Of a DNA stretch of 64,000 nt, positions 10,795 through 54,006 are shown in pieces. Positions within the stretch are counted from its first letter, which is position 1, and every line of letters starts with the position of its first letter. Source of the stretch: Halorussus salinus (GTDB taxonomy: Archaea > Halobacteriota > Halobacteria > Halobacteriales > Haladaptataceae); assembly GCF_004765815.2 (NCBI RefSeq), contig NZ_SBIS02000013.1, positions 141,189 to 205,188 on the forward strand, written 5' to 3'. Position numbers and translations under genes: made by a program. The notes beneath the pieces are model-generated. The model was not told where the DNA came from and did not search any database. It saw only the letters and a program-made list of their open reading frames with translations.

Positions 10795-11052
10795 ATGGTC
10801 TCGAAATCGACGCTCAAGGAGGTTATCGAAATCCTCGGTATTTTCTCGATGTTCGCGCTTAGTGTCTTTGTCTACCTTGTGTGGTGGCTTGCCTTCTATC
10901 AAGGCGGCCAAGTTTCACTGCAAATTAACGTCTTTGAGGAGATGTGGTTTGAATACGTTCTCTGGCTCATCGTCACCCCTCTCATCACCCTCTCGATGTA
11001 CTATTACCTGAAAGAGGACGGACAATCCCAACCAACTCCTGACCAAGAGTAG
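10795..11052 (+). CDS. Small two-TM membrane protein
   Basis: About 85 residues if started at the Met at 10795 (MVSKSTLKEV); the frame is open upstream to 10693, but that part is polar and unlike the rest. Two hydrophobic segments (about residues 12-34 and 50-70) are linked by a short loop with an acidic NVFEEMW. No family recognised. It converges on the large surface protein gene at 11133. Confidence 0.55.
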   Translation: MVSKSTLKEVIEILGIFSMFALSVFVYLVWWLAFYQGGQVSLQINVFEEMWFEYVLWLIVTPLITLSMYYYLKEDGQSQPTPDQE

Positions 11053-11132
11053 CGCGAGAAGAGACTACCAGCTGACCACCGGAACTCCGAAAGAAGAACG
11101 CCGAGTCGAAGGGGGATTGCTGACTTTCGAGC

Positions 11133-23822: not shown

Positions 23823-23858
23823 GGTTTTATGTCACACGCTGTGTCTGTCATCTATACG

Positions 23859-29311: not shown

Positions 29312-30571
29312 ATGCCTAACTACGCTCAGTTCAATGACCTTGACGAGTTTGAGCAGTTCTATAGGGAGCAGATTATTCCAAAACTGCGTAACGACCCCGA
29401 TTTTGACGCCGACCCTCTTCAGGAGACACCAACGTACCGGTGGCTCAAGACAAACTTCTCGGGATTCGTTGAACGCCTTCGGCGCGACCACGCCCTCTCA
29501 CCTGGCGAGTTCTACGACACCGTCGGCCTTCCCCCGAATCCCACTGAATCAGACAATAACTGGCATATCTCCCACGAACCCACCGTTCGAGGCCTCGAAG
29601 ACTATCTTGAAGAACTAGAACGTGACCGAGGACGCGCTGAGACTACAGTTGGACCCCGGCGATCAAGATTGAAAACCTACGTCACCACATACCAGAAAGT
29701 CAATGAAACAGGCGACCTCCTCTCACCGCTACTGGACGAAAACGCGAAACCCGATGAAATTGCACGCGTACGAGACACATTCCGTGTCCTTGATGAAGAG
29801 TTGGGGACGCTTGCCTCGAAGAAGAAGTACGTCTCAGCGGTGAAAAACTGGTATACATTCCTCGAAGAGATGGGTCGTGGACTCTACAATCCGGCCGAGA
29901 ATCTCTTGAACCGCTTCGGATGGGATGAAGATCCTCGGTACGACCATCCCGCCCTCAGTCGCGACGAACTTGATCGGCTACTCGCCGCCGGCGACGACGA
30001 CGAGCGCTTCCTTCTGCTTGCGCTTGCCGGATGGGGACTCCGTCCCAGAGAGGCATGTGAACTGCACGTAGACCAGCTAGTCCTCGACCCCGCTGATGAG
30101 GATGTCCCCTACATTGAGTTTGAGGCAGGCCAGCGAAAGAACGCACGGCGTACTCGGAACACGGTTGAGCTTCTCGTCGGCGTTGACGCCATCGAAGACC
30201 GCATCAACGCTCTCGGTGAACACGACGATTGGACAGGCTATCTCTTTCCTGGACAGTCGATTGAACATCCGATATCGACGGAAACGGCGCGACGGTGGTT
30301 CCGTGATCTCGGCGAGCGCGCCGACGTCACCATCGCTGACAGCTACCCACTCCCGAAGATGGGGCGACGGACGTGGTATCGCCTTTATCGCCAGCAGCGC
30401 CCAACCATCGAAGCGGGAACAGCGGCTGTCGCAGCCTCGCAAGGAAGCCGCGATGCGTCCGTCTCCGAACGCAACTACCTCGACGAACGGACGCGACGGC
30501 AGGCTCGCGCCGACGCAATGCGTGACCTTGTGCAAGGCGAGTTTGCGGGTATTTTCGACGAGTACCTCTGA
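29312..30571 (+). CDS. Tyrosine recombinase/integrase (XerC/D-like)
   Basis: 419 residues. An N-terminal SAM-like DNA-binding region (about 90-215, with TTVGPRRSRLKTYVTTYQK) is followed by a catalytic domain with the first Arg in GWGLRPREACELH and a C-terminal part with KMGRRTWYRL and ASQGSRDASVSERNYLDERT, where the Tyr in NYLDE is the likely nucleophile. The HxxR motif is not evident in canonical form, so some divergence exists. It lies next to an MNT/HEPN pair and upstream of a tRNA-like segment at 30910, as expected for the integrase of an integrated element. Confidence 0.85.
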   Translation: MPNYAQFNDLDEFEQFYREQIIPKLRNDPDFDADPLQETPTYRWLKTNFSGFVERLRRDHALSPGEFYDTVGLPPNPTESDNNWHISHEPTVRGLEDYLEELERDRGRAETTVGPRRSRLKTYVTTYQKVNETGDLLSPLLDENAKPDEIARVRDTFRVLDEELGTLASKKKYVSAVKNWYTFLEEMGRGLYNPAENLLNRFGWDEDPRYDHPALSRDELDRLLAAGDDDERFLLLALAGWGLRPREACELHVDQLVLDPADEDVPYIEFEAGQRKNARRTRNTVELLVGVDAIEDRINALGEHDDWTGYLFPGQSIEHPISTETARRWFRDLGERADVTIADSYPLPKMGRRTWYRLYRQQRPTIEAGTAAVAASQGSRDASVSERNYLDERTRRQARADAMRDLVQGEFAGIFDEYL

Positions 30572-35796: not shown

Positions 35797-36762
35797 ATGG
35801 CCCGGCCAACCCGCCAGCAAACCAATAATAGTGACCACACGATAGAAACCGAGGAAGACGAAACTGAGAGTCAGAGCTGTCCGGAGTGTGACTCCGAGAA
35901 TCTCACTACAAATGGCGAAAGTAGCGAAGTTGTCTGTGAGGATTGTGGACTCGTCATCGAAGAGCAGATGATTGACCGCGGACCAGAATGGCGTGCGTTC
36001 AATCATAGCGAACGACGAGACAAGAGCCGTGTCGGCGCGCCGACCACGCAGACGATGCACGACAAAGGATTAACTACCCAAATCGACTGGAAAGACAAAG
36101 ACGCCTATGGGCGGTCCCTTTCCTCCGAGAAGCGCAGTCAGATGCATCGCCTCCGCAAGTGGCAAGAACGCATCCGCACGAAGGACGCGGGTGAACGCAA
36201 CCTCCAGTTCGCACTTTCAGAAATCGACCGCATGGCTTCTGCACTCGGCGTCCCGCGCTCAGTTCGTGAGGTTGCGTCGGTCACGTACCGACGTGCCCTC
36301 AAAGAGGATTTGATTCGTGGTCGGTCCATTGAAGGCGTCGCCACTGGCTGTCTCTATGCAGCATGTCGGCAGGAAGGGATTCCCCGAAGTCTCGAAGAGG
36401 TCTCCGAGGTCTCTCGTGTTGACCAGAAGGAAATCGGCCGGACGTACCGGTATGTCGCAAAGGAACTCGGTCTGAAAATGAAGCCAGTAGACCCCAAAGA
36501 GTACGTGCCACGGTTCACGTCCGAACTGGATGTCAGTGAAGAGGTGAAATTGAAGGCGAACGAGATTATTGATGAGTCGACAGAGCAGGGCCTTCTTTCC
36601 GGAAAATCCCCGACAGGCTTCGCAGCTGCCGCCATATATGCGGCGTCACTCCTCTGTAATGAGAAGCAAACTCAGCGTGAGGTTGCCGAGGTTGCACAAG
36701 TGACCGAAGTCACAATCCGAAATCGATATCAAGAGCAGATCGAAGCATTCGGCATCTATTGA
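35797..36762 (+). CDS. tfb: Transcription initiation factor TFB
   Basis: 321 residues. N-terminal zinc ribbon with CPECDS and CEDCGL (about residues 28-50), then the B-reader/linker with [13 protein letters not shown], and two cyclin-like repeats (about 125-215 and 225-315, with [20 protein letters not shown] and [12 protein letters not shown]). TFB bridges TBP and RNA polymerase at archaeal promoters. Haloarchaea encode many TFBs; the location among IS relics suggests an accessory paralogue. Full length and apparently intact. Confidence 0.95.
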
Positions 36763-37298: not shown

Positions 37299-40200
37299 AT
37301 GAATAGTACACGAAACACGACACGACTCTTAGCAGTCATATTTTCGATGCTGCTAGTGACATCGGCAGTAGGAGCCGGCGCGCTGTCGAGTGTCGGGGTA
37401 ACGCAAGCACAGCAAGCCAGCGACGTGCTGTACCGAGTGAACGCCGGCGGCAACACCGTGACACCATCGAATGGCCCGGACTGGTCCGGAAGCTACAACC
37501 AGTACGTGACCGGCGGATCATCGTACGGCTCGTACAGTGGCACAGTGTCTCTCGACAGTTCCGTGCCGTCAGGAACGCCGACGGACATTTTCGGCAATGA
37601 AGTGTACGGCGACCAAAACTGGACCTTCTCTGACAGCATCCAAAGCGGCCAACAGTACGAGGTCCGTCTCTACTTCGCCGAAATATACCACGGCGTGACC
37701 AACAACAATGGCGCGGACGCACGAGTCTTCGACGTCGCCATCGAGGGCCAGACGGTACTGAACGACTATGACATCGCCGCCGACGTCGGAACAGAGACCG
37801 GCGTGATGAAGTCGTTCACCGTCACGCCCTCCGACGGCACTCTTGATATTGACCTCACGACTGAGGTCGACAACGCCAAGATTTCGGCAATCGAAATCGT
37901 CGAAGCACAGCCCGAACCAAATACACTCGGCGGTCCGTCGAGCGTCAACTTCGGGCAAGTCATCACTGAGAGCTCAGCGACAGAAACGGTCACCGTGACG
38001 AATCTCGGTGACGACGGTGACCCGAGCATCGACATCTCGGATATCTCCCTCTCGGGCTCGGACACAGACGCGTTCTCGGCAGGGTCGGTGTCTCAGACGT
38101 CGCTCGCACCTGGCGAGTCCGCCAACATCCCGGTGACATTCTCACCGTCCGCGGTCGCCGTCGAAAGCGCAACGCTCGAAGTCAGCCATAGTGGGTCGAA
38201 CACGCCGCTGACAGTCGATCTCTCCGGCGAGGGCGCAAGCGCGGTGGAGCCCGACTTCCAGAAGAGCAAACTTCAGGGCTTCAGCGCGGGCAACCCGACG
38301 GCCATCGACTTCGGGCCTGATGGGCGAGCCTACGTCTCGACGCAGGGTGGCACGGTGTACGCACTCAACATCACTCGGACCGGCGACAACAGCTACACGG
38401 TCGAAAACGAGGTCCAGATCGACGCCATCAAACAGATCCCGAATCACGACGACACCGGTGATTACAACCCCGGCGAAAACAATCGCCAGATTACTGGTCT
38501 AACCGTTGGCGGAACCGTCGAGAATCCAGTAGTGTACGTCTCCTCATCTGACCCGTCTATCGACGTCGGGCAAGATGACGATGACACGGACACCAACTCT
38601 GGAGCGATTTCGCGACTCGAAATCTCGCCTGGAAGCGATGGCGTGCTCGAAAGTAGCGAAATCAACCACGACGTATTGGTCATGGGGCTGCCTCGTTCCG
38701 AGGAGAACCACGCGACCAATGGGATCGATCTCTCGGCCGACGGCGATACGCTGTACGTCGCACAGGGCGGTCACACCAACAAGGGCGCGCCCGGCGACAA
38801 CTTCGGTCATACGCCCGAATACGCGCTCTCGGCGGCCATCCTCGAAATCAACATCGCACAAATCGAGAACAACTACCAAGCGAAGGACCTCGCGACCTAC
38901 GACCCGCAGGGTAGCGATCAGTCGTACCCGGCTCTCGACTTCTACTACGCCATTCCCACCATCCAGAACGACGATGCCACGGACGGCGACGACCTGCCGT
39001 TCGGCGGCAACGACGGGATCAACCAAGCGAAGCTAATCGAGGGCGGGCCGGTGCAGATTTACTCGGCCGGGTATCGCAACCCCTACGACCTGGTCGTGAC
39101 CGAAAGCGGCCAGATTTACGCCGCGGATCATGGTCCGAACGGCGGCTGGGGCGGCCAGCCAGCTGACGCGAACGGGAACATCGTGGCCGACGCCGCGTCG
39201 GTGACAAACCACCCCAACGAGGATGGCAGCTTCTCGACCAACGACCAGCTCGTCAAGGTCGATGAGGGCGACTACGGCGGCCACGCGGCGCCGATCCGTG
39301 CCAACCCGACCGAGGCGGATATCTACGACGCGAACGGGAACATGATCTTCGACATTACAGCGTCGAACTCCCCCGTTCCGGAGAGCATGGTGAACCCGGT
39401 CGAGGCCGACTACATCCCGCCGACGAGCGGGTCACCCGACCCGGGCGCCCCGGCGGGCAGTGCGAACACGATGGAGACCGAGAGCGGTGACAAAGTCTTG
39501 TTCGGCCCGACCGGCGGAACGGCCGAGTACACCGCCTCGAACTTCGGCGGCGCGATGGAGGGCGACCTCCTGCAAGTCGAACTCGGCGGTGATATCGAGC
39601 GCATCGAACTGAGCGCCGACGGCTCAACGGTCACGAACGTCGAGACGCTCGCTAACACCGGCGGCCCGCTTGGCATCACCGCACAGGACGACGACGAAAC
39701 GTTCGCCGGGACGGTGTGGACCGCGAACCATGGTGGTAACGACGTTACCATCCTTGAGCCGGTCGACTACGGCGATGACAGCGACGGCGGTGACGGCCAG
39801 CAATGCAGCGGCGCCGACGACGCCTCGCTTGACGAGGACGGCGACGGCTACGACAACGCTGATGAACTCGACGCGGGTACCGACCCATGCTCGGCGGCCT
39901 CCACGCCCGCCGACTTCGACGGTGACAGCACCTCGAACGTCAACGACCCCGACGACGACAACGACGGGCTTGCTGACACCGACGACCCGTTCGCGGTTGA
40001 CGCGAACAACGGCATCGACACCACGCTCCCCGTCCAGCACGACCTGTCGGAGCTCAGCCTGTTCGGCGAGAACGGCCAGGGCTGGACCGGGCTAATGACC
40101 AATGGAACCGACTACCAGGACCTCTACGACACATCCCAGATGACGATTGGCGGCGCGGCGGAGGTCCTGACGGTTGAGCAGGTCCCGCCGGGTGACGCGT

Positions 40201-43200
40201 ACTCGGACACGAATACCCAACAGTACGCGTTCCAGTACGGCGTCAATCCGCCGGACGAACCGTTCGTCGTCGAGACGACGGTGAGTAGCTTCCCGGACGA
40301 CCCGGCGAACTACCAGTCCGCTGGTCTGTACATTGGCACTGGTGATCAGGCGAACTACACCAAGCTGGTCGTCGCGGCCGACGGTGGCAACGGCGGTATC
40401 CAGTTCGCGAAGGAGGTTGAAGATACCTTCAGCAGTCAGCCAACCGTCAGTGACAGCGCGGTCACGACGTCGAAGACAACGCTCCGCCTGACGGTTGACC
40501 CGACGACCGATCCCGCACCAGACAACGATGTCGACGAAGTCGCGGTGACTGCCGAGTATGAGGTCAACGGGAACGCAACTGAGGTCGGAACCACGGCCGT
40601 CCCGGCGACGTGGCTCGACACGTCCGACGGCGTCGCGCCCGCGGTGGGCGTCATCGCGACGTCTAACGGCGCGAGTCCGTTCCCGGCGACGTGGACCGAC
40701 ATCTCGGCCGAGTACGTGACTCCGCCTGTGAACCAGCCGCCGACGGCTTCGTTCACTTACTCGCCGAGTCAGCCGAACGCCACCGAACAGGTGACGCTCG
40801 ATGCGTCCGGAGCGAGTGATTCGGACGGCTCTATTGCGAGCTACAAGTGGGACTTTGACGGCGACGGTCAGACCGACGCGACCGGCCAGCAGGTCACTCA
40901 CGCGTTCGAAGCGGCAGGCGACTACCCGGTCACGCTAAACGTCACTGACGACGACGGCGCGAACGACTCGACGACCCAGACGGTCTCGGTCGTCGAGGTA
41001 CCAAGCAAACCCCAGTCGGTCGCCGCGATTGTCGCAAGCCAGAGCGACGGTCCCGACGCGAACGACAGCAAAATCGACCTCCAGGAGATTCAGACCGCAA
41101 TCGATTGGTGGGCTGAGGACGACCCCGTCCCAGGCACCGACGGCCAGACGCTGGGCCTCCAGGAGATTCAACAGCTCATCGATATGTGGGCTGAGGACGA
41201 ATCGGTCGACGGTGGCGAGGGCGACCAGCCTGCCGCCACTGGCTCCGCGCTGGTCGAGATCACGCCCGACACGGGCCTCGAAACCAGCACCTACGGCAGC
41301 GGCTCCTACCAGGTCACGAACACCGGCGAGAAAAACATCACGTCGGTCTCCTTCGACCTGAGTAGTACTACACTCCCGGACATGGTGTTCGACCCGCAGG
41401 GCACCGCTGGTGACCCGACCGGTGAAGGCCTCAACATCGCGAGCGAGGGCGACACCAATATCCTCACCGAGCCCGGCACCGGCGAGGCGTTCAGCCAACC
41501 CCACAACGGTCAGAACGCCGACGACGGCTACGACGTGATGACCGTCGAGTTCGGCGACTTCCAGCCCGGTGAACAGGCCACCTTCTGGGCCGACAATGAC
41601 CCAACCTCCATCAAGGGCGCGACCATCGGCTCCCAGGAGGCTGGCCCGGTCTCCGGACTGGAACTGGCCCGCGCGACGGTGACGGTTACCTACGAGGACG
41701 GCACCACCCAGACCACCCAGCTAATGGGCGACGGGAGCGACGGCGGCGCGACCGCCGTCGTCAACGGCAACGAGGCACCGGCGCCGACCATCGGTGCCCA
41801 GGACGTCTCGCTCGATTCGAGTGCGCTCGACGACTACCACAGCGCGGCGACGGTCTCGTCAGCCAGCCAGACCATCACGGTCACCGGACAGCCTGGCGAG
41901 ACGGTCACGCTGGTGCGCGTCGAGGGCGAACTCACGCTGAAGAACGTCCCGGAGTACGATGGAACGACCGGCTACAACGTTGAGGCCTACGAGGCCAACG
42001 ACGCCGAGGCGGTCGAGTACTACACGGCCACGCTCGACTCGAACGGCGAGGCGACGATTCCGGTCACGCTGACCAACACGACCGGCGATGAGGATGCGGG
42101 CAACGCGGGTTACAACTACTTCGTGGCCGCGCACGGTGAGGCCTCCGGCAACATGGGCCTCGCGTCGAACGTCGCAGTCCTGAAGTACGAGGAGGGTGCT
42201 GACTCCGGCGGTGACACCGGTTCCGCCGACTTCGCGGTCACTGCCAACAGCGGCGTTGACGCGAGCACCTACGGCGCCAACTCATTCGAGGTCACGAACA
42301 CTGGCGATAAGCAGATTACGTCGGTCACCTACGACCTGAGTTCAGCGGCGTTCCCTGACGTCGTCTTTGACCCGCAGGGGACCGCCGGCGACTCGGGCTC
42401 GAAGGGCTTCACGCCCGACAGCGGCTCAAGCACAACCGGTCTTCAGGGCGGTTCGTTTGCCGCGCCACACAACGGCCAGAACGCTGACGACGGCTACGAC
42501 GAGCTAACTGCGACGTTCAACGACTTCCAGAACGGCGAGACATTCGCCTTCTCGGTTGACATCGACCCGACCAGCATCAAGAACGCCCAGGGAACCGGCG
42601 CTGCGGGCTCGGTCTCCGGGCTCGAGATGTCGGGCGCGACGGTGACTGTTGCGTACGCTGACGGCACCACCCAGACGACCCAGTTGTTTGGTGACAGCAG
42701 CGACGGCGGCTCGCAGGCGACCGCGAAAGCGGACGTTGCGAGTGCGCCCAGCCTAGCCGTCGACGGCGTCTCACTCGACGCGAGCGCCCTCGACGGCCAG
42801 CACAGCGCCGCAACCGTCTCATCGGCCAGCCAGACTGTCACGGTCTCCGGTCCTGCGGACGCGACCGTGGAACTGCTCCACATCGAGGGGCAGCTCGAAC
42901 TCGCCAACCAGGCCGACGGCTACGACCTCGAGGCATACGAAGCCAACACCGCCGAACAGGCCAGCTACCAGACCGTTCAGCTCGGCAGCGACGGCCAGGC
43001 CACGGTCGACGTGACCCTGACCAACACCTCGAGCAGCGGCGCCGAGGGCGGGTTCAACTACTTCGTCGCGGCCGTCCAGGACGCCAGCGGCGACACCGGC
43101 CAGACCTCGAACGTGGTCGCGCTGAAGTACGACCAGAACGCCGACTCCGGTTCGGACGACGGCGGTTCGTCGAGCCAGCAAGTGCTCCACCGCGTGAACG

Positions 43201-43706
43201 CCGGTGAGGGGACGACGCTCTCCGCTACGGACGACGGTCCCGACTGGACCGGCGTTGCGGACACGAGTTCGCAGTACCTCGCCTCGGTCGCCGAATCAAG
43301 CGCCGGGAACTACTGTGGCGGCGCAAACATCACACCCACCGAGTCGGTTCCGTCGAATACCCCTGACGCGGTGTACGATTGCGAGCGGTACGGCAACTCC
43401 ACGTGGCAGTTCTCAGTGGATCCTGGTCAGGAGGTTGAGGTTCGACTCTACCACGGTAATCAGTTCTCCGGTGCCAGCAACCCTAGCGACCGCCAGTTCA
43501 ACGTCTCTATCGAAGGCCAGCAGGTCCTAAGTCAGTACGACCCCGTAGCCGACGTCGGCCATGCGAACGGGACGATGAAGAGCTTCGTCGTCACCGACGA
43601 TGGAGACGGCATCATCAGTGTCACCTTCGAGCAGGGAGCGGCCGAAAATCCGCAGGTGAACGCCATCGAAATCGTAACAAACGACGATTCTAACGGAGGG
43701 AGCTGA
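37299..43706 (+). CDS. Giant secreted malectin/ASH/beta-propeller/PKD protein with dockerin-like module
   Basis: About 2135 residues from Met at 37299; the frame is open upstream but without a signal peptide. Order: signal peptide (1 to about 40); malectin-like domain (about 45-202, LYRVNAGGNTV); ASH/choice-of-anchor domain (208-314); sorbosone/PQQ-dehydrogenase-like beta-propeller (328-824); calcium-binding DxDGDG repeats (846-906); LamG-like domain (907-1140); PKD domain (1145-1235); Trp-rich dockerin-like module (1238-1306, with IDLQEIQTAIDWW and LQEIQQLIDMW); two ~310-residue tandem repeats (1315-1632, 1643-1946); second malectin-like domain (1960-2131). No membrane anchor. It is probably carbohydrate-binding and tethered through its dockerin-like module to partners in the operon. 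Confidence 0.85.
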   Translation: MNSTRNTTRLLAVIFSMLLVTSAVGAGALSSVGVTQAQQASDVLYRVNAGGNTVTPSNGPDWSGSYNQYVTGGSSYGSYSGTVSLDSSVPSGTPTDIFGNEVYGDQNWTFSDSIQSGQQYEVRLYFAEIYHGVTNNNGADARVFDVAIEGQTVLNDYDIAADVGTETGVMKSFTVTPSDGTLDIDLTTEVDNAKISAIEIVEAQPEPNTLGGPSSVNFGQVITESSATETVTVTNLGDDGDPSIDISDISLSGSDTDAFSAGSVSQTSLAPGESANIPVTFSPSAVAVESATLEVSHSGSNTPLTVDLSGEGASAVEPDFQKSKLQGFSAGNPTAIDFGPDGRAYVSTQGGTVYALNITRTGDNSYTVENEVQIDAIKQIPNHDDTGDYNPGENNRQITGLTVGGTVENPVVYVSSSDPSIDVGQDDDDTDTNSGAISRLEISPGSDGVLESSEINHDVLVMGLPRSEENHATNGIDLSADGDTLYVAQGGHTNKGAPGDNFGHTPEYALSAAILEINIAQIENNYQAKDLATYDPQGSDQSYPALDFYYAIPTIQNDDATDGDDLPFGGNDGINQAKLIEGGPVQIYSAGYRNPYDLVVTESGQIYAADHGPNGGWGGQPADANGNIVADAASVTNHPNEDGSFSTNDQLVKVDEGDYGGHAAPIRANPTEADIYDANGNMIFDITASNSPVPESMVNPVEADYIPPTSGSPDPGAPAGSANTMETESGDKVLFGPTGGTAEYTASNFGGAMEGDLLQVELGGDIERIELSADGSTVTNVETLANTGGPLGITAQDDDETFAGTVWTANHGGNDVTILEPVDYGDDSDGGDGQQCSGADDASLDEDGDGYDNADELDAGTDPCSAASTPADFDGDSTSNVNDPDDDNDGLADTDDPFAVDANNGIDTTLPVQHDLSELSLFGENGQGWTGLMTNGTDYQDLYDTSQMTIGGAAEVLTVEQVPPGDAYSDTNTQQYAFQYGVNPPDEPFVVETTVSSFPDDPANYQSAGLYIGTGDQANYTKLVVAADGGNGGIQFAKEVEDTFSSQPTVSDSAVTTSKTTLRLTVDPTTDPAPDNDVDEVAVTAEYEVNGNATEVGTTAVPATWLDTSDGVAPAVGVIATSNGASPFPATWTDISAEYVTPPVNQPPTASFTYSPSQPNATEQVTLDASGASDSDGSIASYKWDFDGDGQTDATGQQVTHAFEAAGDYPVTLNVTDDDGANDSTTQTVSVVEVPSKPQSVAAIVASQSDGPDANDSKIDLQEIQTAIDWWAEDDPVPGTDGQTLGLQEIQQLIDMWAEDESVDGGEGDQPAATGSALVEITPDTGLETSTYGSGSYQVTNTGEKNITSVSFDLSSTTLPDMVFDPQGTAGDPTGEGLNIASEGDTNILTEPGTGEAFSQPHNGQNADDGYDVMTVEFGDFQPGEQATFWADNDPTSIKGATIGSQEAGPVSGLELARATVTVTYEDGTTQTTQLMGDGSDGGATAVVNGNEAPAPTIGAQDVSLDSSALDDYHSAATVSSASQTITVTGQPGETVTLVRVEGELTLKNVPEYDGTTGYNVEAYEANDAEAVEYYTATLDSNGEATIPVTLTNTTGDEDAGNAGYNYFVAAHGEASGNMGLASNVAVLKYEEGADSGGDTGSADFAVTANSGVDASTYGANSFEVTNTGDKQITSVTYDLSSAAFPDVVFDPQGTAGDSGSKGFTPDSGSSTTGLQGGSFAAPHNGQNADDGYDELTATFNDFQNGETFAFSVDIDPTSIKNAQGTGAAGSVSGLEMSGATVTVAYADGTTQTTQLFGDSSDGGSQATAKADVASAPSLAVDGVSLDASALDGQHSAATVSSASQTVTVSGPADATVELLHIEGQLELANQADGYDLEAYEANTAEQASYQTVQLGSDGQATVDVTLTNTSSSGAEGGFNYFVAAVQDASGDTGQTSNVVALKYDQNADSGSDDGGSSSQQVLHRVNAGEGTTLSATDDGPDWTGVADTSSQYLASVAESSAGNYCGGANITPTESVPSNTPDAVYDCERYGNSTWQFSVDPGQEVEVRLYHGNQFSGASNPSDRQFNVSIEGQQVLSQYDPVADVGHANGTMKSFVVTDDGDGIISVTFEQGAAENPQVNAIEIVTNDDSNGGS

Positions 43707-43708
43707 CG

Positions 43709-44041
43709 ATGCAGGCTCCTGATGATTGGGTTTGGACGCACAGTACGGGCGTCTCAATCACGCCCGTTACTTCGGCCGGACAGCGTACTGCAACGGCTCC
43801 TGTCCGGACCGAACGCTGCAGCTCAAACCCATTCCCACTCGGCGATACTGACGGTGAGCATCCACTAGCTCACGTCAGCATCGGGCAGTCTGCTGGATCG
43901 AAGGCACGCTTGACAGCCGTCGACGGTACCATCTCGAAATCGCGGGGTACGTCGACCGTCCGTACGATTGAGAGAGAATCGACTGCGGCGTTCGGTGTCG
44001 CAATCACAACCAACACGATCTGTACAGGTGGTAGACAATGA
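43709..44041 (+). CDS. Small protein between secreted-complex genes
   Basis: 110 residues starting 2 bp after the giant gene and overlapping the next ATG (ATGA). It has no signal peptide or TM segment and is rich in Thr/Ser/Arg, unlike its acidic secreted neighbours. Tight coupling supports a real gene, but composition and lack of a known family leave room for a chance frame. No function can be given. Confidence 0.45.
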   Translation: MQAPDDWVWTHSTGVSITPVTSAGQRTATAPVRTERCSSNPFPLGDTDGEHPLAHVSIGQSAGSKARLTAVDGTISKSRGTSTVRTIERESTAAFGVAITTNTICTGGRQ

Positions 44042-46329
44042 AAACGGACAACACGCAGCGGTTCACACAGTTCACAGCTGTGAGTCTCGCGCTGTTGGTC
44101 CTGTTCTCGGCGTTCACGCCGGTCGGGACCGTCGGCGCGCAGTCAGCAGTATCGATTTCTCAGACAGCGACGACCGCCACGACTGTCGCGCCCGGCGACA
44201 CCGTTATCCTCGAAACGACGGTGTCCGCCCCCGACGCGAACGGACCGGCGATCGACGTCGACCTACCTAACGGCTGGACGATTACCAATCCGTCATCCGA
44301 TGGCGGTACGTACAAGTCCGCTGTGAATCAGTGGGTCTGGCTCTCGGGCAGCCATACAGTAACCTACACTGTACAGGTACCCGAGGACGCCGCTGAGGGC
44401 GACTACATCGTCTCCGCCGAGGGGTCGGGTATTGATCCGGCAACGGACGAGCGGCTGACCGACACAATACAGACTACGATAACGGTCGATGAAAACCAGG
44501 CTCCGACCGCTGACGCAGGGAGTGACCAGACAGTCGACGAGGGCGCGACGGTCACGCTTGATGGCGCAGCGTCAAGCGACCCTGACGGGGACGACCTGTC
44601 GTATTCCTGGACTCAGACTGGCGGGCCCGACGTGACGCTAGGCGGCTCGAACACGGCGACGCCCTCATTCGACGCTCCAGCCGAACCACCACAGACCCAG
44701 ACGTACACCTTCGAGCTTACCGTCTCTGACGGGCAGGCTAGTAGCACCGACACAGTAGACGTAACGGTCGAACCGGTCAACGATCCGCCGACCGCCGACG
44801 CGGGCGACGACCAGACGGTCACCGAAGGCAACTCGGTCCAGCTGTCGGGCGCAGGGAATGACGTGGACGATTCGTCCCTGTCGTACTCCTGGACTCAAAC
44901 CGGCGGCCCTGTCGTGAGCCTCTCGGACGCGTCGGCTACCCAGCCGTCGTTCACTGCCCCGTCGATCGATAGCACGAGCACGCTGACCTTCGAGCTCACC
45001 GTTTCCGACGGGCAAGCCAGTAGTACTGATACGGTGACAGTCACCGTCCAGCCAACTGCCCCTGTGAATGACCCGCCGACCGCTGATGCGGGCGACGATC
45101 AAACGGTTCAAGAGGACGACCCGGTTAGTCTGGATGCTACAGGGTCTAACGACCCGAACGGCGACGACCTATCGTACTCGTGGACCCAAACTGGCGGTCA
45201 GTCGGTGACCCTGAATGACGCCGACACGGCGACCCCGACGCTCACTGCACCGAACGTCGACGCTGACGAGACGCTGACCTTCGAGGTTGCGGTTTCCGAC
45301 GGCCAGACGACTGACACCGACACGGTGACCGTGACGGTAACCGCCGTTAACCAGCCACCGACCGCCGACTTCGACGCCGAACCGAGTTCACCCATACCGG
45401 GTGAGCCGGTTACCTTCGACGCTAGCGCGTCGAGCGACGACGGCGCCATCACGAGCTACGAGTGGACTATCGAGACGACGGGCGGCCAGAGCCAGCAGAC
45501 GCTCCTTGCGTCGGACTTCGAAAGCGGGTCGCTTGTGACCGACGGCTGGACCCATGATGCGATGGGTACCGAAGCAAGTGCGGGCGTCGACGCCAGCACC
45601 TCGAACTCCGGCAGTCAGTCGGCCTACCATCACGGTGGGCAAGGAGCTATTGTTTCGCCCGCGCTTGATGCGGGTGATGCTGGCTCGCTGACGGTCTCGT
45701 ACTGGATTCAGAAGGGCGACGAGGCGTTCAGTGAGAATCCTGACGCGAATAGTGGCGAGGATCTGATCGTCGAGTACCTTGACGCGAATGGAAACTGGGT
45801 TGAGGTCGACCGCATTGAAGATAGCGTCGAACCTGGCGCTGAGACCACCGAGAGCGTGACTATCGACGCGGACGACGCACTCCATGATGGTTTCCAGCTC
45901 CGGTTCCATCAGGAAGGCGCGTCGGTCGCATCGGGCGATTACTGGCATGTCGACGATGTGTCCGTAGTTGCGACCACCGATGCAGGGTCCGGCATAGTCC
46001 AGACGTCGGGCCAGACCGTCTCGCACACGTTCGACCAACCCGGCAACTACGAGGTGACCCTGACGGTCACCGGTGACGACGGTGCGACGGACACGGTGAT
46101 CAAGACGGTTGAGGTGTCCAACCAGCAACAGTCGCTGACGATTCCGGAAGCAGTCGCCGGTCAAGACGGCCAGCTTAGCACGTCCGACATTCAGCAGGCG
46201 ATTAGCTGGTGGACTAACGACGAGGCTGTGCCTGGCACTGACGGCGGAACCATCGACACGCAAACAATGCAGGAACTCATCGACATGTGGGTTGAAAACG
46301 AACCAGTCGGGAACGGAGGTGGCGCATAA
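44038..46329 (+). CDS. Secreted multi-PKD protein with nested domain and dockerin-like module
   Basis: 763 residues. Signal peptide (about 1-35); a beta-sandwich (about 38-150) with VAPGDTVILETTV and LPNGWTI that is shared with the next protein; three PKD/Ig-like repeats (about 152-435, each with PPTADAGDDQTV and LSYSWTQTGGP). A fourth PKD domain follows (about 437-694) and is split by an inserted jelly-roll-like domain (about 487-655, with DFESGSLVTDGWTHDAM and YWHVDDVSV). The C-terminus is the Trp-rich dockerin-like module (about 700-755, STSDIQQAISWW and TMQELIDMW). No TM anchor, so it is probably held by a cohesin partner. Confidence 0.85.
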   Translation: MKTDNTQRFTQFTAVSLALLVLFSAFTPVGTVGAQSAVSISQTATTATTVAPGDTVILETTVSAPDANGPAIDVDLPNGWTITNPSSDGGTYKSAVNQWVWLSGSHTVTYTVQVPEDAAEGDYIVSAEGSGIDPATDERLTDTIQTTITVDENQAPTADAGSDQTVDEGATVTLDGAASSDPDGDDLSYSWTQTGGPDVTLGGSNTATPSFDAPAEPPQTQTYTFELTVSDGQASSTDTVDVTVEPVNDPPTADAGDDQTVTEGNSVQLSGAGNDVDDSSLSYSWTQTGGPVVSLSDASATQPSFTAPSIDSTSTLTFELTVSDGQASSTDTVTVTVQPTAPVNDPPTADAGDDQTVQEDDPVSLDATGSNDPNGDDLSYSWTQTGGQSVTLNDADTATPTLTAPNVDADETLTFEVAVSDGQTTDTDTVTVTVTAVNQPPTADFDAEPSSPIPGEPVTFDASASSDDGAITSYEWTIETTGGQSQQTLLASDFESGSLVTDGWTHDAMGTEASAGVDASTSNSGSQSAYHHGGQGAIVSPALDAGDAGSLTVSYWIQKGDEAFSENPDANSGEDLIVEYLDANGNWVEVDRIEDSVEPGAETTESVTIDADDALHDGFQLRFHQEGASVASGDYWHVDDVSVVATTDAGSGIVQTSGQTVSHTFDQPGNYEVTLTVTGDDGATDTVIKTVEVSNQQQSLTIPEAVAGQDGQLSTSDIQQAISWWTNDEAVPGTDGGTIDTQTMQELIDMWVENEPVGNGGGA

Positions 46330-47900
46330 TGACGCAGGCTGACGGCATCATGGTTACGGGGGTAACTGCACTCACCGTCGCCCTGCTCGTCGCTGTCGCC
46401 GCTTTCGCACCCGTCGCCGCGGTACCACAACCTGACGACAGTATCGGCCTCCAACAGTCTGTCGCTGGTGACGCGACAGTCATACCTGGTGACACCGTCA
46501 CGCTCGAAACCACGGTCAACGCGACGGGGTACAATGCGCCCGGCGTTGATGTGGCGCTCCCTGATGGCTGGACTATCCAGAGTCAGTCGACCAACGGGCC
46601 GTTCACCTACAAGGCGAGCACCACTGAGTGGGTTGGGCTCTCCGGCGGCGAGTACACCATCACCTACACTGTCGCTGTTCCCAATGATGTCACCGCTGGC
46701 GACTACACCATTAGCGTCGACGGGTCGGCCATCGACCCTGACACTGACGAGTTCGTCACCCAGAGCGACGGTTCCACGATAACTGTCCAAGACGACTCTA
46801 CCACAACCGTCGAACCGCCGACCACCACGACGGAGGAGCCACCGACCACCACGACCACCGAACCGACGACGACCGTACCGGGCGAGATGTCGGTGAGTCA
46901 GTCGGCTGACGGCCCCGTCGCGCCTGGCGGGACGGTCACGATGACCGCGCAAGTGGACACCACTGGTCTTGACGCGCCTGCGCTTGACGTCAACCTGCCC
47001 GACGGCTGGAGTGTTCAGAGCCAGACCGCTGACGGGCCCGCGAGCTACAAGCCCAGCACCAACGAGTGGATATGGGCCGCTGGCGACGTTGACCAGGTCT
47101 ACACTGTCGAATACGTCGTTGCGGTTCCTGATGACGCCAGCGAAGGCGATTACACGATTACGGCCGATGCCTCCGCGTTGGACGCCGACGACAATCAAGT
47201 GACAGACTCAGCCGTGACGAGCGTCACAGTTGCTGGCGACGGTGGCGGCGAGCAGCCAACCGGGCCAACGAGTGAGGTAAACCTCTCGCCAGCCAGCGAG
47301 CTGACAGGCCTCGACCAGACGACTACATTCGACGTCGTCGTGACGGACGTCGACGGCGGAATAGGCGTCTATGATCTCACTGTTTCGCTTGACGACACCA
47401 ATGTCGGGACGATCACCGATGCGACTGTGGTAAACAGCGGTTCGTCCGCGCTAAGCGACGTTCAAGTCGCGGATGACGGCGCGTCAGCGACGCTCGAAGT
47501 CGTGCTTGCCGACACCGCCGACACTGGGGCAGTGACAGTCGCAATTGTTACTGTCGAGACCGCTAACGAGGGCACGACCGATCTAAACCTCGACGTTGCG
47601 GAACTCGGCACCGAAGGCGGCTCGGCATACGAAGTGACTGCGACCGACGGCGCGACGCTTGAGGTTTCGCAACTCGTGGTTGGTGACTCGGCGAACCCCG
47701 CGGCCGATGGTGATGGCGACGGACTCTACGAGGACATCAACGGCGACGGGAGTGTCACAATGAACGACCTGCAGACGCTGTGGAGTGCCCGGAACAGCGT
47801 GACGATCGCGAACAACCCTGAGGCCTTCGACTTCAACGGCGACGGCCAGTTCACGATTCTCGACATCCAGGCACTCTACAGCCAGGAGCTATCGGCCTGA
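46329..47900 (+). CDS. Secreted cohesin-like plus dockerin protein
   Basis: 523 residues; its ATG overlaps the previous stop (TAATG). After a signal peptide (about 1-34) come two copies of the ~115-residue beta-sandwich seen in the previous protein (about 38-155 and 188-302), separated by a Thr/Pro/Glu linker. A cohesin-like domain follows (about 314-454, with TTTFDVVVTDVDGGIGVYDL and VAIVTVETANEG), then a type I-like dockerin (about 458-522) with two F-hand calcium loops, DINGDGSVTMNDLQ and DFNGDGQFTILDIQ. Having both partners of the cohesin-dockerin pair, it could bridge or polymerise components. The cohesin assignment is by motif and predicted strand pattern, not by search. Confidence 0.82.
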   Translation: MTQADGIMVTGVTALTVALLVAVAAFAPVAAVPQPDDSIGLQQSVAGDATVIPGDTVTLETTVNATGYNAPGVDVALPDGWTIQSQSTNGPFTYKASTTEWVGLSGGEYTITYTVAVPNDVTAGDYTISVDGSAIDPDTDEFVTQSDGSTITVQDDSTTTVEPPTTTTEEPPTTTTTEPTTTVPGEMSVSQSADGPVAPGGTVTMTAQVDTTGLDAPALDVNLPDGWSVQSQTADGPASYKPSTNEWIWAAGDVDQVYTVEYVVAVPDDASEGDYTITADASALDADDNQVTDSAVTSVTVAGDGGGEQPTGPTSEVNLSPASELTGLDQTTTFDVVVTDVDGGIGVYDLTVSLDDTNVGTITDATVVNSGSSALSDVQVADDGASATLEVVLADTADTGAVTVAIVTVETANEGTTDLNLDVAELGTEGGSAYEVTATDGATLEVSQLVVGDSANPAADGDGDGLYEDINGDGSVTMNDLQTLWSARNSVTIANNPEAFDFNGDGQFTILDIQALYSQELSA

Positions 47901-47906
47901 GCAATC

Positions 47907-48761
47907 ATGATGGGAAACAACAAGTCACGATTCAGCGCGTCGCAGGCGATAGCGATCGCCCTCGTGAGCCTTATTGCGTTCGGGTCGCTGACCGCAGCGG
48001 CTGGACCCACAGCTAGCACGGCAGTCAGCCTATCGTCGACAAGCGAACAGGTCACTGTCGGCGATACCACGACGTTCGAGGTGGTGGTCGAGAGCGCCGA
48101 TGATGGCGTCGGCGTCTACACGGCGAACGTGACACTTGAGAACCCGTCGATCGCGTCGATAACGGGCGTTGAAGTCGCTGGTGACCCTCGAATCAAGGAT
48201 GTGAACATCACCGACGATGACTCGTCGGTTCGCATCGATGCTGCGCTGATGAACACGACTGATACTGGGTCGGTAACCATTGCGACTGTCACCGTTGAAG
48301 GCGATGCAACAGGCAACAGTGACGTATCGCTTTCCATAGCGGAACTCGGCGACGAGGATGGTAACGCCTACACGGTGACAGAGACACCGGACGCGACGCT
48401 TGATGTTCAAACGAGTGGCGATACGAACAATGATGACGATACCGATGGCGGGAATAGCAATGCAGACAGTAGTGACCAGGGTAACGCGATGAGTTCAGAC
48501 GCGACGACAGCCAACACGACGTCCGGTGTGTCGGATACCGAGCATTCAGACACGGTGGCTGCCGGGACTACGACCGGTGTGCCGGGTAGTGGTGATAATG
48601 AGTCCTCGAGTACTGTTGCTGATGGGGAGAAAGTGGACCGAAGCGACGATTTGACGGCTGCAGCCACCGACTCGGGGCCAGGACTTGTGGCCGTCTCCCT
48701 GCTTGTCGTCACCCTGGCGGCTCTCATAGCCGGTCTAATTGTCGCGTTCCGACGCCGCTAA
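47907..48761 (+). CDS. Membrane-anchored cohesin-like scaffold protein
   Basis: 284 residues (ATG at 47907 or 47910). A signal peptide (about 1-37) is followed by one cohesin-like domain (about 38-175: VTVGDTTTFEVVVESADDGV, GVYTANVTLENPSIASITGV, VTIATVTVEG) homologous to that in the previous protein. A disordered Asp/Ser/Thr-rich stalk (about 176-250) leads to a transmembrane helix and RRR tail (about 255-284). It is the only anchored protein of the operon and could dock the dockerin-bearing proteins at the cell surface. Last gene of the operon. Confidence 0.85.
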   Translation: MMGNNKSRFSASQAIAIALVSLIAFGSLTAAAGPTASTAVSLSSTSEQVTVGDTTTFEVVVESADDGVGVYTANVTLENPSIASITGVEVAGDPRIKDVNITDDDSSVRIDAALMNTTDTGSVTIATVTVEGDATGNSDVSLSIAELGDEDGNAYTVTETPDATLDVQTSGDTNNDDDTDGGNSNADSSDQGNAMSSDATTANTTSGVSDTEHSDTVAAGTTTGVPGSGDNESSSTVADGEKVDRSDDLTAAATDSGPGLVAVSLLVVTLAALIAGLIVAFRRR

Positions 48762-49040: not shown

Positions 49041-49592
49041 TCAATTTAGTTTGAGATTAGCTTTGGAGAGAGCTTCGTTCCACGATCCAAAGCGGTCATG
49101 ATAGACATCACTTGAGTAGGGGCCTTTTGTGTCCATATCGGATTGCGTTGGCGGTCGTCCGAGCTCACGAGTGAGTTGATGAAGGGCTCGGAGCAGTTCT
49201 TTGCGGTCAATTCTCTGGGACGATTGCTGGCTTTCTTCGTCGAGTCCCGCTTTTTCGAGTGCTGCTCTCCAAGAGCCGAATCGCCGACGATATGTGCTCG
49301 GGGAAAATGGACCGTGTGTCGCCATTTCTTCTTTTCGTGGTGAGTGACCAAGCTCATCTGCCAACTTCTGAAGTTCGGTCAGCAGTTTCTCCTCGGGTAT
49401 TTTTTGTCGATATTTTGGCTTTAGCTCTGCATGCTTGAGAGCGGCAGTCCAAGATCCGAATTCACGATAATATGGTGTCGCCGAATACTTACCATCGGCT
49501 TCCATCTCACCACGTGTCGGTGGCCGTCCAAGCTCCCCTGCCAGCGCTTTGAGAGCTGCTAGAAGATCTGTTTTCGAGATCGGACGGGTCAT
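49041..49592 (-). CDS. Homing endonuclease-associated repeat protein
   Basis: 183 residues made of three ~58-residue repeats. Each has a helix (LAALKALAGELGRPPTRGEM pattern), a YSxxxYxxxFGSW segment and a WxAALxxA helix. The same repeat family occurs at 20452 and 53065. No nuclease domain. Probable small DNA-binding protein; role unknown. Confidence 0.8.
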   Translation of the reverse strand: MTRPISKTDLLAALKALAGELGRPPTRGEMEADGKYSATPYYREFGSWTAALKHAELKPKYRQKIPEEKLLTELQKLADELGHSPRKEEMATHGPFSPSTYRRRFGSWRAALEKAGLDEESQQSSQRIDRKELLRALHQLTRELGRPPTQSDMDTKGPYSSDVYHDRFGSWNEALSKANLKLN

Positions 49593-50662: not shown

Positions 50663-52615
50663 TCAAATCGTGCCGAGCTGCGTGACAACAACGAGATTAT
50701 AGGCCGCGTGAAGGAGTGTCGCACACACAAGCAGGCCCGCATACCAATAGCGGGTTTGGCGTGCGCCGTAGGCAGTAAGCGTCGCGGTCACCACGTGCAG
50801 GCCAAGAGGAGCGAACAAAAGCCCGAGGAGTACAATCGGTGATTGAGACACACCAAGGCCGGTCGCTGTGCCGAACGCAGCACGACCGAGATCAAGCTGC
50901 GGTAGTCCTACTAGTTGGGCGACCGCGGTCGCTTTTTCACCGAGGAAAAAGCCGAGTCCAGATAGACTCCCGAGGAGGCCGACTGTCCGGAGCGACCGAT
51001 CGAAGCGGTCGTGAGCGAATCCAGCATAAATGTGTGCGCTTTTCGCCAGTTCCTCGATTGCCGCGATGACCACCAAGAGAACAGGCAGTGAAAGCTGGAT
51101 TGGCAGGGCGAATAAGATTGCGACCGCGAGTAGTTCGCCGACGAAGACAAACGGAATCGAAAGCGCGCTCAGTTTTGCGACACTCCGTGGCCCCGTAAGT
51201 TGACTATTGAGTGCGTCAAGGAATTTCAGGGGGACTGGACGCTGAGTGAACATATCCTCTTCACGGTAGACGCCACGGCCGAGTGCGAACAGCACGCCCG
51301 AACTCAAGAATAATGGGAGCGTCGAGAAGGCATAGTCACCGAGAGAAACACTGGTTTCTCGGAGCGTATGGACGACGAGTGTCAGCGGTGAGATTGCGGC
51401 AATCGGATGGACGTTTGTGAAGATCGCGGGGATGAACGCATACGACGTCAGGAACACGGAGAGCGAGACCGTGACAAAGGTGAGTTCCTTGAACGAGCGA
51501 GCGAACATCGCGCTGACGAACGCACTGCCGAGATACAGGAGTGCAATTGGAATCACCGCCAAGACTGCTGTGATGACCGCAGCAGACCCAGCAATAACTC
51601 CACTCGCACCGGCGGGCGTCGCTACGAGAATTCCAATCGCAGTGACTGTCGCAATCACCACCATTCCGAGCAAGTACGGCAGCGTCTTCCCAGCGATGAT
51701 ATCACCGGGTGAGACTGGCGATACCAGTAGCAGTTCACCTCGGTCATTGATGCGTTCATCCATGATGCTGCTTGCGTACGCTTGAATCACGAAGTTCATC
51801 GGCAGGATGAACGCAAACGCGAGCACCAACGATTCGAATGGGAACGGTGGCGTAATACCGGATGGCGTTCCCGCTTCGCCATTATCGCTGAACAACGAGC
51901 CACCGCCACTGCTACCGCCATCCGAGGCAGGAAGCGACCCATTCGACGATTGAGCCCCAGCGTTCTCCCCATCCGTGATACCGCTTTGAGTCGTTGGACT
52001 CCCTTCGGTCCCAGACGCTGTTCCCTCAGAGACGCTTCCTACCTGTGTCGTCTTCGTCCGAACCTGTGTCGCTGAGTCGTCTTGGTTCGTCTGCTGGCTA
52101 TCGCTGGCAGTTGTCCCTGGATTCGCTGTTTGTCTATCCGCTTGAGTGTCCCCTATCTGGGTTTGTGGATTCTGCTCAGCGTACTCAAGCGAGACCTGTA
52201 CTGGGAACGCAGCAGCCTGATCCTGCTCACCCCTCATTTGCTGGTCGTTATACCGCTTGACCGTGTCCCGGAACTCGGATAGTGCAGCCCTCCCTTTCGG
52301 CGTATCACTAATCACCACCTGTTTTTCGGAGACGATGAGGATATCAATCGCATCGGCTTGAAGTTTCTCTGCACTCGGTTCGACAACTGTGAACGTTGGG
52401 TCCTGTGAGGCGATGTCGTAGTATCGGCTATCTTCAGACACGCCGACACGGTATATTCCCTGATCGACAGTGACTCCTTGCCCCGCAACCATCGGCAATA
52501 AAATCGCTAACAGCAGGAGGAGAATTCCACCAACCGCCAACGTCCGGCGATCAAACTGCCCGCTGTTCCGTGTTATCTCCCACTTTGCAATCCGCAACAC
52601 ATTGTCCTTATCCAT
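50663..52615 (-). CDS. ABC-2 permease fused to a PrsW-like intramembrane protease
   Basis: 650 residues. The N-terminal half is an ABC-2/NatB-like permease: TM at about 28-45, a polar extracytoplasmic insertion rich in Gln/Ser/Thr (about 130-255), then about five TM helices (262-440) with MDERINDRGELLLVSPVSP. The C-terminal half (about 450-650) has the PrsW signatures EELAK in AAIEELAKSAH, a His in APLGLHVVTATL and a His in LLHAAYNL, likely metal ligands. PrsW proteases cleave anti-sigma factors in bacteria; in haloarchaea such fusions are known but uncharacterised. The usual ATPase gene is not found upstream. Confidence 0.82.
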   Translation of the reverse strand: MDKDNVLRIAKWEITRNSGQFDRRTLAVGGILLLLLAILLPMVAGQGVTVDQGIYRVGVSEDSRYYDIASQDPTFTVVEPSAEKLQADAIDILIVSEKQVVISDTPKGRAALSEFRDTVKRYNDQQMRGEQDQAAAFPVQVSLEYAEQNPQTQIGDTQADRQTANPGTTASDSQQTNQDDSATQVRTKTTQVGSVSEGTASGTEGSPTTQSGITDGENAGAQSSNGSLPASDGGSSGGGSLFSDNGEAGTPSGITPPFPFESLVLAFAFILPMNFVIQAYASSIMDERINDRGELLLVSPVSPGDIIAGKTLPYLLGMVVIATVTAIGILVATPAGASGVIAGSAAVITAVLAVIPIALLYLGSAFVSAMFARSFKELTFVTVSLSVFLTSYAFIPAIFTNVHPIAAISPLTLVVHTLRETSVSLGDYAFSTLPLFLSSGVLFALGRGVYREEDMFTQRPVPLKFLDALNSQLTGPRSVAKLSALSIPFVFVGELLAVAILFALPIQLSLPVLLVVIAAIEELAKSAHIYAGFAHDRFDRSLRTVGLLGSLSGLGFFLGEKATAVAQLVGLPQLDLGRAAFGTATGLGVSQSPIVLLGLLFAPLGLHVVTATLTAYGARQTRYWYAGLLVCATLLHAAYNLVVVTQLGTI

Positions 52616-53064: not shown

Positions 53065-54006
53065 CTACCGCTTCCATGCATCATCCGAATTGTATCCTGC
53101 TTCCCTGACAGCATGAGTCCACGAACCGAACTTAATAAGGTATAATTCAGGGTTGAGTTTGCCTTGCTGACGCATCTCTGCGGGAGTTGGTGGCCGCCCA
53201 AGTTCCGCCTTGAGTTGTCGAAGCTCCGTAAGTAAGGCATCTGCCGGAGGGAGTGACGACGCTCTCGTCGATGTGAGCCCTGCTTTTTCGAGTGCGTCAT
53301 TCCAGCTGCCAAACCGCTTGCGATACGTATCTGCTCCGTGCTTTCCGATTGTATTCATTTCACGGGTAGTCGGTGTTTCCCCGAGATCTGTTGCTAACTC
53401 ACGGAGATGAGTGAGTAACTCATTGGTTGAGTAGGTCGGCGCACCATGCATAGAGTGTTCTGTGAGACCTGCGAGTTGCAGGGCGTCATCCCATGACCCG
53501 AATGCCGAACAATAAATCTCGCTTGCAAAGTCCCCATATCGATCGAGTTCATCCTCTGATGGTGTGCGGCCGATTTCATCAGCGATGTTGACGAGGAATG
53601 TTCGGAGTCGATTGTGTGTCACTGTTGCTTCTGCAGGCGACGTCCGCGGCACAATATTGAAACCGGCGCGTTCGAGCGCTGCCCGCCACGATTTGAAATT
53701 ATCAACAAACACCCATGGAGAGAGTTCGCCCTCCTCTTTGAGGTCAGCACGAGTCGGCGTCCGACTAAGTTCGTCACCCAAGTCTTGGAGATGGCGTTGC
53801 AGACGTGGCTGAGAGAGATTCGGTTCCCTACGGTCAGCGACCCCTGCAGCCTCAAGTGCCGCTACCCACGAACCAAACCGATTCATGTATGTCTCAGCGG
53901 AATACCGCCCAATAGTCTGCATATCCTTTGCTCGTGGAAGCCGCTGCAACCGCCACGCAAGCACCCCTAATTCTTCAATCAACTCCTCATCCGACAAATG
54001 CGGCAT
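53065..54006 (-). CDS. Homing endonuclease-associated repeat protein, five repeats
   Basis: 313 residues with five tandem repeats (about 55-65 residues each). Each has the LPRAKDM/TPTRADL/TPSEDEL/TPTTREM/PPTPAEM turn and a Y-x-x-x-FGSW or FKSW motif. It is the longest of three paralogues in this window (others at 20452 and 49041). The varying repeat number suggests expansion by unequal exchange. Likely DNA-binding; function unknown. A more distant start is unlikely because residues 1-10 are already the first repeat helix. Confidence 0.8.
   Translation of the reverse strand: MPHLSDEELIEELGVLAWRLQRLPRAKDMQTIGRYSAETYMNRFGSWVAALEAAGVADRREPNLSQPRLQRHLQDLGDELSRTPTRADLKEEGELSPWVFVDNFKSWRAALERAGFNIVPRTSPAEATVTHNRLRTFLVNIADEIGRTPSEDELDRYGDFASEIYCSAFGSWDDALQLAGLTEHSMHGAPTYSTNELLTHLRELATDLGETPTTREMNTIGKHGADTYRKRFGSWNDALEKAGLTSTRASSLPPADALLTELRQLKAELGRPPTPAEMRQQGKLNPELYLIKFGSWTHAVREAGYNSDDAWKR

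Follow-up and report, generated by a model that had tools for sequence, protein, structure and literature searches.

Bacterial cellulosomes combine an anchoring scaffoldin, an adaptor scaffoldin and a dockerin-bearing ligand. Here we describe a four-gene operon (positions 37299 to 48761) of the haloarchaeon Halorussus salinus that can be compared with this architecture. It lies in a stretch of 64,000 nucleotides, subsequently called the window, which is the final 64 kb of contig C8 in a genome of 4.75 Mb and 11 contigs. The likeness consists in a cohesin fold, a type-I dockerin, apparent tiers of anchor, adaptor and ligand, and proteins that are all predicted to be exported. In contrast to the bacterial systems, the operon has one cohesin in each scaffold protein (genes 3 and 4) and no multi-cohesin scaffoldin, its ligands carry a different module that we call DocB, it contains neither a glycoside hydrolase nor a Pfam carbohydrate-binding module (CBM), and a transmembrane segment at the C-terminus likely serves as its anchor. 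Since it lacks a glycoside hydrolase, we regard it as scaffold-like and not as a cellulosome in itself.

Noncellulosomal cohesin and dockerin modules were reportedly treated by Peer et al. in 2009. Cohesins and dockerins of anaerobic methanotrophic (ANME) archaea are described in PMC9012536. Compared with these and with the noncellulosomal modules of Archaeoglobus fulgidus (2xdh), the haloarchaeal modules differ in belonging to a conserved ligand-adaptor-anchor operon, in a cohesin family that the Pfam model PF00963 misses in 50 of 74 genomes, and in the interchangeability of DocB and dockerin on the ligand. Haloarchaeal dockerins themselves are taken as substrate-binding in PMC10963439 and PMC13260240, and the word cohesin is absent from the main texts of these two papers. 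The window operon shares with the haloarchaeal glycoside hydrolases of PMC10963439 a type-I dockerin on exported proteins; unlike that account, which makes the dockerin a substrate-binding module, ours names candidate cohesin partners. A search of the open-access literature found nothing on an archaeal cellulosome or on cohesin-dockerin pairs of halophilic archaea; subscription papers and supplements lay outside this search, and priority is unproven.

Predicted ligands, adaptor and anchor

We consider it probable, judging from the sequence comparisons below, that the products of the operon assemble by cohesin-dockerin contacts into a small complex at the cell surface. In such a complex gene 4 would provide a membrane-anchored cohesin, gene 3 an adaptor whose dockerin plugs into the gene 4 cohesin, and genes 1 and 2 ligands whose DocB modules plug into the gene 3 cohesin. 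An earlier reading of this DNA, made from the sequence alone, had proposed such a set of scaffold, bridge and ligand, and the analysis supports it: the cohesin fold holds, the three parts recur together, and the dockerin type of the ligand changes together with the cohesin type of the adaptor. The features of the operon are:

37299..43706, + strand: gene 1, predicted ligand, 2135 amino acids (aa), ATG at 37299 (domain scans, alignments)
38241..39749, + strand: glucose/sorbosone dehydrogenase (GSDH)-type domain of gene 1 (PF07995 on the isolated domain)
41016..41228, + strand: DocB inside gene 1 (profile alignment, genome scans)
43709..44041, + strand: small open reading frame (ORF) of the earlier reading, probably not a gene (family scan, codon-position composition, comparison with the same place in a relative)
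44038..46329, + strand: gene 2, predicted second ligand, 763 aa (Pfam scan, translation)
46135..46326, + strand: DocB at the C-terminus of gene 2 (AlphaFold2 pLDDT 90, helical)
46329..47900, + strand: gene 3, predicted adaptor or bridge, 523 aa (Pfam scan, comparison of loci)
47271..47669, + strand: cohesin domain of gene 3 (cohesin profile)
47712..47882, + strand: type-I dockerin of gene 3 (PF00404, E 2.1e-8; two EF-type loops)
47907..48761, + strand: gene 4, predicted anchor, 284 aa (translation, cohesin profile)
48015..48410, + strand: cohesin domain of gene 4 (AlphaFold2 pLDDT 95, cohesin fold)
48681..48758, + strand: hydrophobic C-terminal segment followed by RRR, likely membrane anchor (read from the translation)

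All four genes run in the same direction on the + strand. Genes 2 and 3 overlap by 1 base, genes 3 and 4 are separated by 6 bases, and each of the four begins with a signal-peptide-like sequence, read by eye from the translations.

Gene 3 was recognised in the sequence-only reading as a protein with a cohesin-like region and a canonical dockerin, and both hold. A signal peptide is followed by two NEW3-like immunoglobulin (Ig) domains, the cohesin and the dockerin, which scores 34.6 bits against the PF00404 cut-off of 22.9. Both calcium-loop/helix repeats can be read in its sequence in the dockerin alignment (A4), where all 15 rows show at least one EF-type loop by a loose pattern. Gene 4 likewise bears out the anchored cohesin-like protein of that reading: it consists of a signal peptide, the cohesin, an acidic linker and a hydrophobic C-terminal segment ending in RRR, through which the protein is likely anchored in the membrane.

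The AlphaFold2 model and a fold search with it point to a cohesin beta-sandwich across the whole gene 4 domain. Structure prediction had been set beforehand as a test that could refute the cohesin assignment, and it gave a cohesin fold rather than an unrelated beta-sandwich. Another proposed check, a hidden Markov model search, came out negative: PF00963 matched neither gene 3 nor gene 4 at E<=1 and had no match in the source genome. It reached sub-threshold scores in three of 20 relatives (best E 0.015). Having the fold and no match to the model, this cohesin family lies outside PF00963 as modelled. Our cohesin profile found nothing significant among the sequences of solved structures, the nearest entries being a designed protein (E 0.59) and the scaffoldin 5m2o (E 0.81).

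The two predicted ligands agree with the earlier description of two very large proteins with PKD and malectin domains and dockerin-like modules. Gene 1 encodes a signal peptide, a malectin domain, a choice-of-anchor D/HYDIN Ig domain, the GSDH-type domain, a PKD domain, an internal DocB, two copies of an unnamed domain (DufX) and a second malectin domain. The GSDH-type domain was not found by PF07995 in the Pfam scan of the whole gene 1 protein; scanned alone it just exceeds the cut-off (E 8.4e-6, 25.7 bits versus 25), and the same family matched the domain in 6/6 orthologues at E<=0.1. The domain had no match among PDB sequences, and DufX gave no usable match (a weak SusC-type hit at E 0.0088). 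In gene 2, PKD repeats lie between a NEW3-like Ig domain, which follows the signal peptide, and a C-terminal DocB. The family scan of genes 1 to 4 revealed no Pfam glycoside hydrolase family. To judge by its malectin, PKD and sugar-dehydrogenase-type domains, the ligand would bind, and perhaps oxidise, extracellular carbohydrate.

Conservation in other haloarchaea

The operon is conserved among haloarchaea. Gene 4 was searched in 59 genomes, its own included, and matched in 12; a protein search with P0005 gave at least eight rows, itself included, and the genome loci were used for the alignments. Regions were retrieved from 11 other genomes and from a second locus of the source genome, and ten of these 12 also have a dockerin. 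Partial cohesin matches with no dockerin nearby occurred in G025 and G046 and were kept in the counts as misses. The gene order in other haloarchaea, which the sequence-only reading had wanted checked, recurs as ligand, adaptor and anchor. A genome inferred to be Halorussus marinus LYG-36 (G008) has these four genes in identical order. The order also holds in a plasmid copy in Halobellus sp. DFY28, whose annotation goes no further than malectin, PKD, dockerin and hypothetical proteins. In a variant on a plasmid of Haloarcula sp. JP-L23, the ligand bears a true dockerin and is accompanied by two cohesin-cohesin-dockerin adaptors and one protein with three cohesins.

We also scanned named genomes for the GSDH-type domain and took the best 80 of 416 relatives, which correspond to 78 loci (18 haloarchaeal, with 60 bacterial ones as control). 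A dockerin-type module was found on 16 of the 18 haloarchaeal ligands. It was DocB in 12 loci (L100-L104, L107-L109, L111-L114) and a true dockerin in three (L106, L117, L119); the ligand is split in one (L110) and carries neither module in two (L105, L116). Apart from L107, which breaks off within the gene, 15 module-bearing loci could be judged, and cohesin genes follow downstream in all of these but L112 (14/15). They follow in neither of the two module-less loci, for which about 5.0 and 3.2 kb downstream were examined. The 60 bacterial stretches, whose sugar-dehydrogenase-type domains are 38-44% identical over the best segment, contained no match to the haloarchaeal cohesin, dockerin or DocB models.

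Of the 195 genomes examined from the order, 74 had a match to the cohesin model, 89 to the haloarchaeal dockerin model (72 to the Pfam dockerin model) and 12 to DocB, several of these last matches being weak. The Pfam cohesin model matched in 46 of the 195 and left out 50 of the 74. A dockerin accompanies the cohesin in 68/74 genomes, compared with a dockerin in 21/121 genomes that have no cohesin (Fisher p 2e-26, relatedness ignored). The cohesin occurs in 9/12 DocB genomes versus 65/183 of the others (Fisher p 0.008, relatedness ignored).

Which module binds which

A tree was built from 58 cohesins of 19 operons, leaving out L101 as a duplicate of L021. Where the ligand of an operon bears a true dockerin, 14 of the 16 adaptor cohesins form one clade (99/89), together with one anchor cohesin, that of L100. 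An adaptor cohesin falls into this clade in 5/5 true-dockerin operons versus 0/12 DocB operons (L103 and the split L110 not counted). The anchor cohesins of the two kinds of operon intermix in clades. When ligand types are mapped on a tree built from the ligand's own domain, the type switches twice, and the adaptor cohesin follows both times.

The dockerins themselves fall into two sequence classes. Those on ligands and upstream adaptors of true-dockerin operons read DAQ in both repeats (8/8), and the anchor-facing dockerins of adaptors read D[VIL]Q in both (18/19), with near-copies among the rows. In Halogranum rubrum (L110) the ligand consists of two proteins. ORF1 (9074-13453 of the locus) matches residues 82-1457 of the L111 ligand at 68% identity and has a dockerin at its end, which reads DVQ and was placed outside both counts. 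ORF2 (from 13629) starts with a signal peptide and a cohesin, followed by DocB and the rest of the ligand, and is 70% identical to L111 residues 1537-2028. A dockerin and a cohesin thus occupy the split point of a chain that is continuous in other species. Taken together, the tree clades, the dockerin motif classes and the Halogranum split lead to the proposed wiring: the anchor cohesin likely holds the adaptor dockerin, and the adaptor cohesin likely holds the DocB or dockerin of the ligand.

DocB and alternative explanations

The dockerin-like modules claimed earlier for the ligands are present in genes 1 and 2, but they are not canonical dockerins. Neither copy reaches the PF00404 cut-off, and for this reason we speak of a dockerin-like module. 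The assignment as a plain dockerin was not adopted in view of this, of the EF-type calcium-loop pattern, found in 0/2 window copies, and of the fold search. DocB is a probable new docking module on the ligand side, as suggested by its alignment (A5) and its exchange with dockerins. A third DocB-like module of the source genome is encoded at 111890-112054 of contig C9 (G000:C9:111890-112054), on an open frame of 336 aa.

Several observations weigh against the arrangement proposed here. L112 has a DocB and no cohesin within 5.6 kb after the ligand, G067 combines a ligand and an adaptor with no recognised anchor cohesin, and the L103 adaptor has no recognised cohesin. In the cohesin tree, the adaptor clade takes in the anchor cohesin of L100 and leaves out the second adaptor cohesin of both L022 and L119; the L087 adaptor dockerin breaks the D[VIL]Q code. 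Two switches of ligand type cannot reach significance (sign test p 0.5), several rows are near-copies, and the Fisher tests take no account of relatedness. DocB has no Pfam match that would mark a dockerin and no NCBIfam match, the fold search with its predicted structure gave weak matches, and its comparison with dockerins by hhalign (E 3.3e-4) reached a probability of only 38. It is conceivable, if improbable, that cohesin and dockerin bind as proposed and DocB is a structural or substrate-contact element, the ligands being held by malectin or PKD contacts or by the S-layer. The missing EF loops, the low hhalign probability, the weak fold search, L112 and the 3/12 DocB genomes that lack this cohesin family would all fit such a role. 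Against it speak the alignment of DocB with dockerins (A5 versus A4), whose score of 22.3 was reached by 0/300 column shuffles (3/200 shuffles when the 7 closest rows were used alone), and the 5/17 aligned DocB rows in which the first EF loop is complete. Moreover, orthologous ligands carry either DocB or a true dockerin in its stead, and the adaptor cohesin changes alongside.

The remaining alternatives concern the cohesin-dockerin contact as such. The many Ig-like repeats, and a fold search that also matched a fibrillar adhesin domain (9ifr) and a Thermus protein (7wrk), are what one would see if the operon encoded adhesins, with Ig-like, PKD and cohesin-fold domains used for attachment to cells or surfaces and no specific assembly. 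We think this quite unlikely, given a true dockerin beside the cohesin fold, the joint change of ligand module and adaptor cohesin, and dockerin classes that sort by place in the chain. Binding of haloarchaeal dockerin-like modules to polysaccharide substrate instead of cohesins, as stated in PMC10963439 and PMC13260240, would accommodate the 16/89 dockerin genomes that have neither kind of cohesin, another point against our proposal; because of these genomes, dockerins may serve other roles too. As a general explanation we give it very little credence: cohesins and dockerins are strongly linked in co-occurrence and in gene position, the predicted structure supports the cohesin fold, and the two halves of the split Halogranum ligand bear a dockerin and a cohesin, respectively.

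Larger systems and a predicted cellulosome

The window operon is likely a small cousin of larger predicted haloarchaeal cohesin-dockerin systems, which by their sequences would extend up to cellulosome size in one genome (G030). To our knowledge, this would be the first archaeal cellulosome. The genome is a single contig of 2,723,120 bases (loci L028, L080-L086 and L189-L226) and is inferred to be that of Halococcoides cellulosivorans HArcel1, an organism listed among the cellulose specialists in PMC10267330. It has 71 ORFs with dockerin matches and 19 cohesin matches. The dockerin ends no more than 10 residues from the C-terminus in 68 of the 71, and 60 have a twin-arginine-like motif in their first 70 residues. 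Among the Pfam matches listed for these ORFs are the glycoside hydrolase (GH) families GH5 (22), GH10 (5), GH9 (3), GH43 (2) and GH11 (1). Cohesin proteins carry up to 3 cohesins each, and one in L083 and one in L085 have hydrophobic C-termini. With many dockerin-bearing enzymes for polysaccharide degradation and multi-cohesin scaffoldins, some of them predicted to be membrane-anchored, G030 carries the predicted parts list of a cellulosome.

Somewhat more cautiously than for the window operon, we lean towards the view that haloarchaea have a cohesin-dockerin world of their own on a family largely missed by Pfam. It would range from small mobile three-tier scaffolds, whose ligands can exchange the dockerin for DocB as a new docking module lacking calcium loops, up to a complete cellulosome with about 70 dockerin proteins in the archaeon Halococcoides cellulosivorans. 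Dockerins of the kind seen in the operon are carried by more than 20 cellulase-type enzymes, together with cohesins of its family, in a genome likely to be that of a cellulose-eating haloarchaeon; the operon would accordingly be an archaeal relative of the bacterial cellulosome. The main value of the operon is the cohesin family that it exposes, which supplies a candidate partner for haloarchaeal dockerins. The attack of haloarchaea on insoluble polysaccharides thereby becomes directly testable, and protein engineering may gain docking pairs that are stable in salt, one of them perhaps lacking the usual calcium loops.

Other loci differ in their cargo. The second cohesin-dockerin locus of the source genome (L032, G000:C9:37001-57000) has a 448-aa cohesin protein adjoining a subtilase of 1307 aa, which carries a C-terminal dockerin, and a dockerin protein of at least 2891 aa. 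G107 encodes eight Pfam-grade cohesin repeats in a single protein (L092 16565-19999), beside several Peptidase_S8 subtilases with dockerins or cohesins; judged by its domains, this locus resembles a cellulosome built with proteases. A protein with at least 5 cohesins, cut by the contig end, is located near dockerin-bearing GH5 proteins in L095 (G178:C23:1-15000). G034 (L029 9459-12080) encodes a protein that joins a PhoX-type alkaline phosphatase domain with a cohesin and a dockerin, and next to it a small cohesin protein; cohesin pairs of similar size also occur in other genomes of the same family.

Extent and genomic setting of the operon

The sequence-only reading had counted five genes, of which genes 1 to 4 stand. 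The small ORF between genes 1 and 2 (43709-44041, P0002) was dropped because it has no family match, because its composition by codon position (guanine plus cytosine, GC, 0.54/0.64/0.56) is unlike that of genes 1 to 4 (0.59-0.64/0.48-0.52/0.63-0.81), and because it does not resemble the ORF that occupies its position in Halobellus sp. DFY28 (11.9 bits).

The operon is indeed richer in GC than its surroundings, as had been noted (0.624 versus 0.525 in the remainder of the window). The conclusion drawn from this, a separate acquisition of the operon, was rejected in that form, since five stretches of the large contigs C1-C4 are richer still (0.647-0.679). Three other stretches of the window's own contig have values of 0.473-0.568. 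The contig is AT-rich for its genome; it is the neighbourhood that is odd, not the operon. The window further encodes a TnpB/OrfB-type gene (3555-4799), Orc1/Cdc6 (23829-25154), a phage-type integrase (29312-30571) and a TFB gene (35797-36762). From these genes and the AT-rich composition, the contig is probably a plasmid or an integrated element. The copies on plasmids of two other genera support mobility better than GC does, and the operon is therefore likely mobile.

Among the other genes of the window, a CetZ tubulin-like gene is located at 5027-6130 (- strand). An ABC-2 type permease protein is encoded at 50663-52615 (- strand) and contains an EELAK motif in its C-terminal part, which we presume to recall PrsW-type membrane proteases, a family absent from its Pfam hits. 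The permease gene is flanked by the genes of two proteins made of homing-endonuclease-associated HNH_repeat units (49041-49592 and 53065-54006, both - strand).

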